41,287 bases of DNA, from NCBI GenBank assembly GCA_028718605.1, contig JAQULM010000001.1:477719-519005 (forward strand). The letters run 5' to 3'. Below the pieces are notes generated by a model. The model was not told where the DNA came from. It did not search any database and worked only from the letters and a program-made list of their open reading frames with translations. Both the position numbers and the translations under genes were made by a program. This DNA comes from Patescibacteria group bacterium (GTDB lineage Bacteria; Patescibacteriota; Patescibacteriia; UBA10025; JAHIVO01). Of this stretch, positions 12,513-26,681 are shown piece after piece. How positions within the stretch are numbered: the stretch's first letter is position 1; each line of letters begins with the position of its first letter.

Positions 12513-12541
12513 GCATGTTTAATTATTTTAATTTCCTTTGA

Positions 12542-12558
12542 TGGACCAGGGGGAGTTG
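12542..12558 (-). pseudogene. Truncated 3' end of a tRNA-Ala-like gene
   Basis: Minus strand CAACTCCCCCTGGTCCA resembles CAACTCCCCTTTGGTCCA of the intact neighbour. Confidence 0.5.
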
Positions 12559-12624
12559 CCGGGTTTGCACTGCGGAGCGAGGTCAGGGAACCTCCGACTC
12601 CCGCAACCCGCCTGCCATCGCCAC

Positions 12625-12695
12625 TGGACCTAGGGAGAATCGAACTCCCGTCTCCACAATGCGAATGTGGTGTCATACCACTAGACCATAGGCCC
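12625..12695 (-). tRNA. tRNA-Ala(CGC)
   Basis: GGGCCTATGGTCTAGTGGTATGACACCACATTCGCATTGTGGAGACGGGAGTTCGATTCTCCCTAGGTCCA; anticodon loop TTCGCAT; G3:U70; no encoded CCA. Confidence 0.85.
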
Positions 12696-12903
12696 AAAGG
12701 ACATAGCGGGTAGGCGCGAATGAAGTGCTCTACTTCACCCCATCCTCTATGGACGGGTAAGCTGTGCTACTGATCCCTAAAATCGTTTACCTGATATATA
12801 ATATTAACAGTATTTTTAAATATGCCAATAATCTACCAATCTTTAAAACAATTCATTAAAAATGCCTATTTATCTGATTCCCCATATATTAATACTCTCA
12901 TGA

Positions 12904-12985
12904 GGCCTGCCTGTCTGTAGACAGGAATTGAACCCCTATCCATTGTTAGCGCCCATTGTTATGAAGACCGTTCACCTTAACTGCT
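12904..12985 (-). pseudogene. Degenerate tRNA-like sequence (possibly Met-like)
   Basis: Minus strand ...AACGGTCTTCATAACAATGG...GGATAGGGGTTCAATTCCTGT ending in the palindrome CTGTCTACAGACAG; no good acceptor stem. Confidence 0.35.
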
Positions 12986-12989
12986 CTCG

Positions 12990-13034
12990 AGAGGAATTCA
13001 AACTCTATCCACGGCTAAGGAATCCTTTGTTCTA
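12990..13034 (-). pseudogene. 3' fragment of an interrupted tRNA-Arg-like gene
   Basis: Minus strand TAGAACAAAGGATTCCTTAGCCGTGGATAGAGTTTGAATTCCTCT aligns with TAGAACAAGGGACTCCTAAGCCCTAGATCCAGGTCCAATTCCTGG of the intact tRNA. Confidence 0.6.
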
Positions 13035-13143
13035 CCCGCCTGCCATTGCCCTTGCCCCCACCAGGAATTGGACCTGGATCTAGGGCTTAGGAGTCCCTTG
13101 TTCTATCCGTTGAACTATAGGGGCATCGGCAAGGGTGGGCGGG
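13035..13143. repeat. Inverted-repeat-bounded segment carrying tRNA-Arg(CCU)
   Basis: Ends CCCGCCtgccattgCCCTTGCC (13035-13056) and GGCAAGGGtgGGCGGG (13128-13143). Confidence 0.65.
13053..13124 (-). tRNA. tRNA-Arg(CCU)
   Basis: GCCCCTATAGTTCAACGGATAGAACAAGGGACTCCTAAGCCCTAGATCCAGGTCCAATTCCTGGTGGGGGCA; acceptor GCCCCTA/TGGGGGC; anticodon loop CTCCTAA. Confidence 0.88.
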
Positions 13144-13157
13144 TCCGTTGAACTACG
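13144..13157 (-). pseudogene. 5' fragment (D-arm) of the interrupted tRNA-Arg-like gene
   Basis: Minus strand CGTAGTTCAACGGA; joins in register with TAGAACA at 13034. Confidence 0.55.
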
Positions 13158-13213
13158 AAAAAATGTGCATTAATAGGATCACCCGTAATATCTTATATTC
13201 CCACTTTTAAAAA

Positions 13214-13344: not shown

Positions 13345-13617
13345 CTATTTAATAAAAAACGAACTTATATAATGTGAAAAATCTGCGAATTTATCACTCC
13401 TTTTATCAAATACCATCAGACCAACGAGAGTTAACACGATTATTGTCATTGAAACAATAATCATCACAAGTTCTTTGCGAATTACTTGATGCTCACTTGC
13501 ATCAGTGTCACTGATGATTTCGGGATCTTGGCTCTGGCTTACATCCTGCGTTTCGAGCGACTGCTTTAAGTGTTCCATGCCTTGCAGCAATTTTTGATTC
13601 TTTTTTCGCTTTGACAT
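13345..13617 (-). CDS. Hypothetical small single-TM membrane protein
   Basis: 90 aa: charged N-terminal half, then ELVMIIVSMTIIVLTLVGLMVF transmembrane segment. Confidence 0.55.
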   Translation of the reverse strand: MSKRKKNQKLLQGMEHLKQSLETQDVSQSQDPEIISDTDASEHQVIRKELVMIIVSMTIIVLTLVGLMVFDKRSDKFADFSHYISSFFIK

Positions 13618-25287: not shown

Positions 25288-25312
25288 TGGGCATGGATGG
25301 ACTCGGACCATC
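25288..25312 (-). pseudogene. 3' half (T-arm + acceptor) of an interrupted tRNA
   Basis: Minus strand GATGG-TCCGAGT-CCATC-CATGCCC-A; acceptor complementary to GGGCATG at 25556-25562. Confidence 0.75.
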
Positions 25313-25369
25313 CGCCTACGCTATCGCTCCGGCGGACAGGTCGACCCGTACGGTCTTTATTCCCAGAGG

Positions 25370-25443
25370 TGGGCGCAGATGGACTCGAACCATCGACCCC
25401 CACTTTATAAGAGTGGTGCTCTAACCAACTGAGCTATGCGCCC
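25370..25443 (-). tRNA. tRNA-Ile(UAU)
   Basis: GGGCGCATAGCTCAGTTGGTTAGAGCACCACTCTTATAAAGTGGGGGTCGATGGTTCGAGTCCATCTGCGCCCA; anticodon loop CTTATAA (UAU); no encoded CCA. Confidence 0.88.
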
Positions 25444-25525
25444 ACCTCTGAAAACTTTTTTTAAAAAGGAACTCCCACGGCACTTGTCCCCCGCAGTCCC
25501 GAACGAAGTGAGGGGACAAAGGGGG

Positions 25526-25562
25526 ATAAGAGTGGTGCTCTAACCAACTGAGCTACATGCCC
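25526..25562 (-). pseudogene. 5' half (acceptor, D-arm, 5' anticodon arm) of an interrupted tRNA
   Basis: Minus strand GGGCATGTAGCTCAGTTGGTTAGAGCACCACTCTTAT, identical to tRNA-Ile(UAU) beyond the acceptor stem; stops in the anticodon loop. Confidence 0.8.
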
Positions 25563-25649: not shown

Positions 25650-26681
25650 TTACACCTGAACGCTCTGCTTTTTAGTAAACAGCAAATGCATCCAGCGTAG
25701 GAATTTACTTTCGGGTTTCTGCTCTGTGAGCTTCAGAAACAAGAACCCCCATGCAATATACTGGAACGTCACGTACGCTGATCCGATGAAGGCAATCAGG
25801 ACGAACCAGACCAATACCCCGAGAATAAGCGCGACGGTAAAACCAGTACTTGAATTCATAATCAGGGAAGCAAGCGCAATAAGGATGAAAGGGATCGCCG
25901 TAATCCCCATAGCACATGCTATCAACAAACCAACAGCAAGCCCGGTGATTAAAACAATGATCGCCATTTCAATGCTCACGAGCCAATTGCGCCTGAAGAG
26001 GTCCCAACCGAGCTTGACTGAATCCCGCACTGGTTTGCCGATAATGACGATGTAGGCAATCGCATACTTTACGACGAATGACAGAATAACTGAAATGGGA
26101 ATAAACACAATAAATACGAGGACAATGAAAATGATGCCTCCCAATAAATTATTCTTTATCAGGAACCATGCGATCAGCGGAGTTCCCAATATGACTAATA
26201 CGCCGTATACCACGACTTTTACGACGATATTGATCAGCAATATCGAACCAAAATACTTATTGCCTACGCGGTACCCGTCCCCATACCGGATAGGTTCTCC
26301 GCCCTGGCTTTTTTTAGCAACATCAAACAGCGCCGCCTGTGAAACAACCGCGAGCCACAGCATTACCACTGCAATCACGCAGACCATCAGCAGAAACAGA
26401 ACTGCTTGGAGGGGATAAGCGGAAAAAAAGGCCTTCATATTTTCAAACACCTTCCACAGCAGCCCCTCCTGGTATATCGACTGGAAGCTCAGGATTTCGC
26501 GGGACCGTTCACCGATGTTTGTATAGTTTTTGAATAACGGCTCAAGTTCGCCGGTTGCACCAAGAAACGCGGCGAAAAAACCAAAAAACCATAAAAATTT
26601 ATTCTTCATGGTCACAGCATACGCTCGCCTGAGAACGTCTTGGTACACTGATGGTTGTGATGATGCTTTTTCACGCGGCAT
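25650..26681 (-). CDS. Multi-pass membrane protein of unknown function
   Basis: 343 aa with several hydrophobic segments; gene ends upstream of tRNA cluster. Confidence 0.8.
   Translation of the reverse strand: MPREKASSQPSVYQDVLRRAYAVTMKNKFLWFFGFFAAFLGATGELEPLFKNYTNIGERSREILSFQSIYQEGLLWKVFENMKAFFSAYPLQAVLFLLMVCVIAVVMLWLAVVSQAALFDVAKKSQGGEPIRYGDGYRVGNKYFGSILLINIVVKVVVYGVLVILGTPLIAWFLIKNNLLGGIIFIVLVFIVFIPISVILSFVVKYAIAYIVIIGKPVRDSVKLGWDLFRRNWLVSIEMAIIVLITGLAVGLLIACAMGITAIPFILIALASLIMNSSTGFTVALILGVLVWFVLIAFIGSAYVTFQYIAWGFLFLKLTEQKPESKFLRWMHLLFTKKQSVQV

Follow-up and report, generated by a model that had tools for sequence, protein, structure and literature searches.

How does an intact tRNA-Ile(UAU) gene come to lie between the 5' and 3' halves of another, nearly identical tRNA gene, and what are these halves? 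The arrangement is located on the minus strand of the window, i.e., the whole stretch of 41,287 nucleotides that was analyzed from a Patescibacteria genome (G000). As the first-pass annotation had reported, the 5' half (25562-25526) and the 3' half (25312-25288) are separated by 213 nt. Its description of the parts was likewise accurate: the outer acceptor strands GGGCATG/CATGCCC are fully complementary to each other and unlike those of the inner tRNA (GGGCGCA/TGCGCCC), and the intervening 213 nt contain a complete tRNA-Ile(UAU) and two different GC-rich hairpins, one on either side. The locus comprises the following features:

25368..25443, minus strand: inner intact tRNA-Ile(UAU), acceptor GGGCGCA/TGCGCCC, sole copy in the genome (ARAGORN and Rfam, 75 bits)
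25526..25562, minus strand: outer 5' half of the native tRNA-Ile(UAU), 37 nt, broken after UAU in the anticodon loop
25288..25312, minus strand: outer 3' half, 25 nt, T arm and acceptor 3' strand CATGCCC; the acceptor is that of the un-nested G005 orthologue
25484..25525, minus strand: hairpin P1 (CCCCC..TTGTCCCCTCACTTCGTTCGGGACTGCGGGGGACAA), an insertion within the anticodon loop of the outer tRNA, with a core CTCACTTCGTTCG that is part of a dispersed palindrome family
25311..25340, minus strand: hairpin P2 (CCTG-TCCGCC..GGCGGA), located where the outer 3' half begins, read from the sequence and folded
25444..25450, minus strand: left arm (CAGAGGT) of an inverted repeat that extends the inner acceptor stem
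25364..25369, minus strand: right arm (CCTCTG) of the same inverted repeat
25471..25485, minus strand: AAGTGCCGTGGGAGT, a weak candidate for what is left, beyond P1, of the 3' strand of the outer anticodon stem, suggested by other loci
25341..25347, minus strand: GGGTCGA, a weak candidate for where the outer 3' part begins ahead of P2, suggested by the sequence
25650..26681, minus strand: conserved 343-aa gene adjoining the tRNA locus, used as synteny anchor

Exactly one intact tRNA was detected between the outer halves by ARAGORN and Rfam. It is framed by the additional inverted repeat CAGAGGT..ACCTCTG, which lengthens the acceptor stem by 6-7 bp and, with the acceptor included, gives perfect arms of 14 nt. 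Outer and inner sequences are 92% identical over 38 nt in their 5' parts and 84% over 25 nt in their 3' parts. The self-similarity score of the upstream flank was 30, mismatched pairs of tRNA and flank reaching 16 at the 99th percentile, and the outer 3' half alone scored 15; the similarity at this locus is beyond chance. The locus carries no GIY-YIG gene. Searches of the window and 15 related loci against Rfam at the gathering threshold returned tRNAs (plus 16S rRNA) only, with no match to an intron model, and a plasmid search gave a single short match across the tRNA region and nothing more.

Related genomes identify the origin of the halves. A tRNA-Ile(UAU) is located at the 3' end of the 343-aa gene in all four members of the window's family (G000, G001, G002, and G003), and the same synteny was found in the sister family (G004 and G005), with the orientation of the tRNA beside the gene reversed in G002 and G004. 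The first-pass annotation had proposed a synteny comparison with sister genomes, and the syntenic tRNA-Ile(UAU) of G005 proved to be un-nested and to carry the acceptor GGGCATG/CATGCCC of the window's outer halves. In addition, the outer 5' half is identical at 37/37 positions to the intact tRNA-Ile(UAU) of the more distant G011. On account of these two matches, the outer halves most plausibly represent the native gene, and the inner tRNA its replacement. Nesting or fragmentation affects the locus in every member of the window's family (4/4) and in neither of the sister family (0/2). Within the family, the outer 5' part holds three hairpins in G002 and two in G003, and G001 (L109, upstream of 13414-13489, minus strand) has two identical tandem broken tRNA-Ile 5' parts with hairpins as well as an older one, followed by the intact gene; the outer halves of the relatives are visibly decayed, truncated, or tandemly repeated. 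The tandem copies look like repeated invasion or segmental amplification, the latter resembling that attributed to SegB (see below). It is well supported that the outer halves are the original tRNA-Ile(UAU), disrupted in a loop by small hairpin insertions, and that the inner tRNA is a complete working replacement on which survival of the cell depends. The first-pass annotation had favored a decayed gene for the outer pair over a split tRNA assembled in trans; the former stands, as the halves match the intact tRNA-Ile(UAU) of relatives, and the latter is not supported (see below). A misassembly, which it had also considered, is unlikely because independent genomes show nesting with different sequences and different tRNAs.

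The gene that was broken is probably essential. G000 encodes one tRNA-Ile(UAU) gene, and 40/44 of its anticodons are single-copy. Lysidine synthetase (TilS) was not found in this genome at an E-value of 0.001, a cut-off passed by 10/14 control genomes, although at 95.5% completeness a missing match is no proof of absence. Since no TilS was found, tRNA-Ile(UAU) is probably the sole reader of AUA in G000. Such a gene can be disrupted only when a functional copy is available. As a side observation, G000 has three CAU tRNAs yet no TilS match.

The arrangement recurs across tRNAs and genomes. Each tRNA was compared with its own flanks, with other tRNAs masked and mismatched pairs as control (99th percentile 16). 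Own partial copies were found for 17/49 (G000), 12/44 (G001), 17/45 (G004), and 10/48 (G011) tRNAs, i.e., 10-17 of 44-49 per genome; the list starts at a score of 15, so that its weakest entries are uncertain. The first-pass annotation had suggested a genome-wide search for paired tRNA halves around intact tRNAs. Two-sided nested cases include tRNA-Pro(CGG) and Arg(GCG) in G000, Ile(GAU) in G025 and G005, Phe in G045, Ile(UAU) in G042, and Gln(UUG) in G011. The outer acceptor in G042 (GCTCGCA/TGCGAGC) is likewise self-complementary and differs from the inner one. A second nested tRNA in the window, a tRNA-Arg, had been noted before; it is indeed present, and the arrangement recurs within the clade.

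Several further observations were made at tRNA loci. At 12982-13163 of the window (minus strand), tRNA-Arg(CCU) (13052-13125) is located inside another tRNA-Arg that is broken in the D loop; TTTTCGTAGTTCAACGGA (~13163-13144) precedes it, TAGAACAAAGGATTCC..CTCTCGAGAGCA (13034-12982) follows it, and GC-rich inverted arms lie between. At ~12540-12780 (minus strand), tRNA-Ala(CGC) (12624-12696) apparently lies within a decayed tRNA-Ala with more hairpins in the outer parts. In G000, copies of tRNA-Thr and tRNA-Phe carry insertions of another type, ~100 nt in length (GGGCCGAGA..GCCCCGGAAGAGC), in their D loop (L008 954-1500, minus strand, and L092 after 2165). A second family consists of GC-rich structured elements of ~90-150 nt located after tRNAs (e.g., ATCGAAGGGCAG..CTGCCCAGGACCCGAT), which end in a tRNA copy reaching from the T loop to the 3' end, 130-200 nt downstream. 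It was seen at L016, L017, L018, and L025 and in tRNA flanks of G001, G004, and G011, with 17 candidate cases in four genomes and no Rfam match among those searched.

In complete cases, the order of parts is as follows: outer 5' fragment, hairpin(s) P at the break, a few more nucleotides of the outer tRNA, spacer or open reading frame (ORF), short inverted repeat, intact tRNA, repeat arm, and outer 3' fragment, often with another hairpin. In the longer, nuclease-bearing versions, the second outer fragment follows the intact tRNA in some cases only. Most breaks are occupied by hairpin insertions. Breaks concentrate in loops: 50/64 upstream 5' fragments end in one (25 in the anticodon loop, 18 in the D loop region, and 7 in the T loop; p ~8e-11 with 29/76 tRNA positions counted as loop). 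Inverted repeats with a score of at least 8 flank 33% of tRNAs with an upstream fragment versus 9% of those without (Fisher p 0.001) and occur in 2.6% of mismatched flanks. Their sequence varies from locus to locus; in two cases (Ala in G039 and Lys in G004), the left arm is the natural leader, being found also before the outer fragment. In predicted folds, the inner tRNA needs the right arm in two loci (L032 and L066), with little or no effect at the others; L063, L092, and L073 were left out of this comparison as their readings were distorted by register or coordinates.

The hairpins fall into several types. In the lineage associated with tRNA-Ser (the Ser lineage), the break is mostly GGTTCG^AATCC and holds a 44-nt twin hairpin of the form CG-N4-R-TCATNCGA-Y-N4-CG followed by its inverted counterpart. 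The 19 twin-hairpin sequences are 100% paired, with two-sided changes in 11/18 pairs and a covariation of 0.415 versus 0.125 for shuffled sequences; they were chosen by core motif and minimum stem, so that the full pairing is partly selected, the compensated stem variety less so. A second type (TCCCGA..TCGAGGATC) was found 22 times, with 0 matches for the reversed control and 14/22 located no more than 400 nt from a tRNA. The P1 core was detected at 53 sites in 148 genomes, compared to ~3 for the reversed pattern. A tRNA specificity of this core was considered and discarded, with 20/30 sampled sites away from tRNAs and 10/30 near them.

Where the arrangement is longer, an ORF of ~80-95 aa, encoding GIY-YIG as its single domain (PF01541), takes the place of the spacer directly beside the intact tRNA; such genes were identified at 5 other tRNA loci of G000. 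Among 111 distinct GIY-YIG genes from ~60 genomes of the class, 54 adjoin an intact tRNA (45 directly upstream and 9 directly downstream), all on the same strand, a fraction that is biased since genes were picked by score and from loci already around tRNAs. No GIY-YIG gene in this sample adjoins a tRNA on the opposite strand, and about half lie away from any tRNA. Whole-genome scans of four genomes, excluding long UvrC-type ORFs, placed 19/31 GIY-YIG genes at a tRNA. The upstream genes are typically within 20 nt of the tRNA or overlap it, involve ~15 tRNA identities, and are preceded by a 5' tRNA fragment in 30/45 cases versus 2.4% in the control. A mirror order, i.e., intact tRNA followed by the GIY-YIG gene, was observed at L191, L216, L225, L246, L244, L261, L282, and L302, several of which have a hairpin and a tRNA 3' part thereafter.

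The catalytic GIY-YIG residues are conserved: across 17 tRNA-linked proteins, Y6, Y17, G19, H31, and E63 are invariant and R27 is near-invariant. This alignment was too divergent for scanning the collection, and a 3-protein alignment of the Ser lineage was used as query instead. With one genome per species, the scan yielded 56 loci; 49 of the 52 with sequence room lie beside a same-strand tRNA, and 26 of these 49 neighbors are tRNA-Ser, downstream. Hosts include many Patescibacteria as well as Kiritimatiellae, Victivallales/Lentisphaerae, Cloacimonadota, and Omnitrophota. On the nuclease tree, proteins linked to the same tRNA identity group together across host families (35 versus 40.5 changes for shuffled labels, 0/200); nuclease lineages also switch tRNA identity on the tree, though inner and outer identity agree. 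The idea of the inner tRNA as strictly carried cargo is weakened by this switching.

We consider the best explanation, held with reasonable though far from full confidence, to be elements of GIY-YIG genes and hairpins that target tRNA loops and leave, or arrive with, a rescue copy of the tRNA. The predicted nuclease would break the tRNA gene at a loop, and recombinational repair would duplicate the tRNA, in the way shown for SegB, a phage T6 enzyme of the GIY-YIG type. One copy would then retain the element or its hairpin in its loop, and only lineages retaining an intact copy would survive. The element could thus spread through essential, mostly single-copy genes without killing its host. The inverted repeat may perhaps favor folding of the inner tRNA on itself over folding with the outer halves; the folds give a mixed picture of such a predicted benefit. 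The window locus would be an ORF-less member of this family, an assignment suggested by shared architecture and not by shared sequence, and it would represent a non-autonomous or decayed example. Difficulties for the explanation are that an intact inner loop should itself be a target of the proposed nuclease, and that about half of the sampled GIY-YIG genes lie away from tRNAs. A fuller version of this reading is more tentative, and we put it at slightly under even: a 'cut and rescue' selfish element whose minimal GIY-YIG nuclease breaks the loops of tRNA genes that are essential and single-copy, leaves hairpins as a mark in the broken copy, and is tolerated through an adjacent duplicated or carried full copy. 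Such an element would have spread through the majority of tRNA identities in Patescibacteria and in some further phyla, and could strike one gene repeatedly.

Neutral decay is the alternative that weighs most: tRNAs would be duplicated in the ordinary way, the redundant copy would then be hit by REP-type palindromes, and the GIY-YIG genes would be passengers. The hairpins could indeed be ordinary dispersed palindromes landing in a redundant copy, in agreement with the distribution of the P1 core (20/30 sites away from tRNAs), the decay of the outer copies, and the differences in hairpins among loci. Moreover, candidate Y1 transposases, of the superfamily that mobilizes REP sequences, occur in the genome, with two matches just above the cut-off in G000, six in G004, and none in G001. 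Several features nevertheless speak against passive decay: breaks fall mainly in loops, copies share identity and strand, the ORF of the nuclease closely adjoins the tRNA and is always on its strand, complete cases have the intact copy within the broken one, and tRNA sets are mostly single-copy. We regard this account as unlikely, while assigning it an appreciable probability.

The other readings are far less probable. A cassette kept for regulation or processing, in which outer halves and extended stem control folding or maturation of the tRNA, would agree with the enrichment of inverted repeats beside nested tRNAs and the need for the right arm in two loci; the outer parts, however, degrade rapidly and are not alike in sisters, some orthologues are un-nested, and the fold effect is absent or small elsewhere, which makes a cassette quite improbable. 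Ends of tRNA genes are classic attachment sites, and many tRNAs here have a 3'-end copy ~130-200 nt downstream, so that the fragments might be att-type scars of integrase-borne integrative elements using tRNA genes as sites. The inserts are just ~100-400 nt in length and devoid of an integrase, breaks occur in D, anticodon, and T loops, and both 5' and 3' fragments are found; an att origin is very improbable. Least of all do we expect the outer halves to join into a second functional tRNA, be it by splicing out of the 213 nt or by assembly in trans, a possibility that we rate as highly improbable. Its appeal lies in the perfect outer acceptor, whose strands are predicted to pair across the entire insert (as in G042 with GCTCGCA/TGCGAGC), and this complementarity is accounted for by the halves being a former native gene. 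No Rfam intron family matched the window or the 15 related loci, extra hairpins lie inside the halves, and the outer halves of relatives are visibly decayed, truncated, or tandemly repeated. As for assembly in trans, the arms contain hairpins, the anticodon stem's 3' strand does not run on into the 3' half, the halves are in cis on the same strand, and the inner gene already provides the tRNA.

The tRNA genes of these ultra-small bacteria appear heavily invaded, with roughly 20-40% of tRNA genes in the four examined genomes adjoining a broken piece of themselves. The findings suggest a selfish-element route into essential RNA genes without splicing, offer small GIY-YIG enzymes with apparent tRNA-loop targets, warn annotators of tRNA fragments, and render testable the question raised by GIY-YIG insertions in CPR rRNA genes that match no intron. 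No description of nested tRNAs of this sort was found in the open-access papers searched, and the arrangement appears to be hitherto undescribed.

Several known systems share individual traits with it. REP/BIME sequences are paired inverted hairpins with variable, compensated stems; unlike these, the hairpins here are located in tRNA loops, and one lineage is joined to a GIY-YIG gene instead of a Y1 transposase. In fungal mitochondria, homing-endonuclease elements insert with a duplicated piece of the host gene and leave a displaced relic. They differ in residing in organellar protein genes, without loop hairpins or a whole nested copy. Truncated extra gene copies have been described in an endonuclease-rich mitogenome (PMC4162613). 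Archaeal split and intron-containing tRNA genes have 5' and 3' halves apart in the genome (PMC3218864, PMC4390854); there, the halves make the working tRNA, whereas here the intact inner gene does so and the halves are relics. In the same bacterial group as the window, CPR rRNA genes harbor GIY-YIG insertions without a match to group I or group II introns, and short uncharacterized ORF-less inserts at stem-loops (PMC11270868). These are located in rRNA, where an insert may be removed or tolerated, and the paper describes no rescue copy and never mentions tRNA in its main text (PMC11270868). SegB of phages T4/T6 is a free-standing GIY-YIG homing endonuclease beside tRNA genes, and in phage T6 it has been linked to segmental amplification of a tRNA gene via recombination and implicated in cutting tRNA-containing sequence (PMC13096335). 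The likeness consists in a GIY-YIG nuclease beside tRNA genes and the duplication of a tRNA segment, with activity and duplication mechanism being our inference here. SegB is phage-borne and lacks a broken, loop-hairpin tRNA copy around an intact one, whereas the elements described here reside in cellular genomes, mostly of Patescibacteria, involve many tRNA identities, and encode much smaller proteins. GIY-YIG mobile elements as such are known; what is unusual here is the rescue arrangement.
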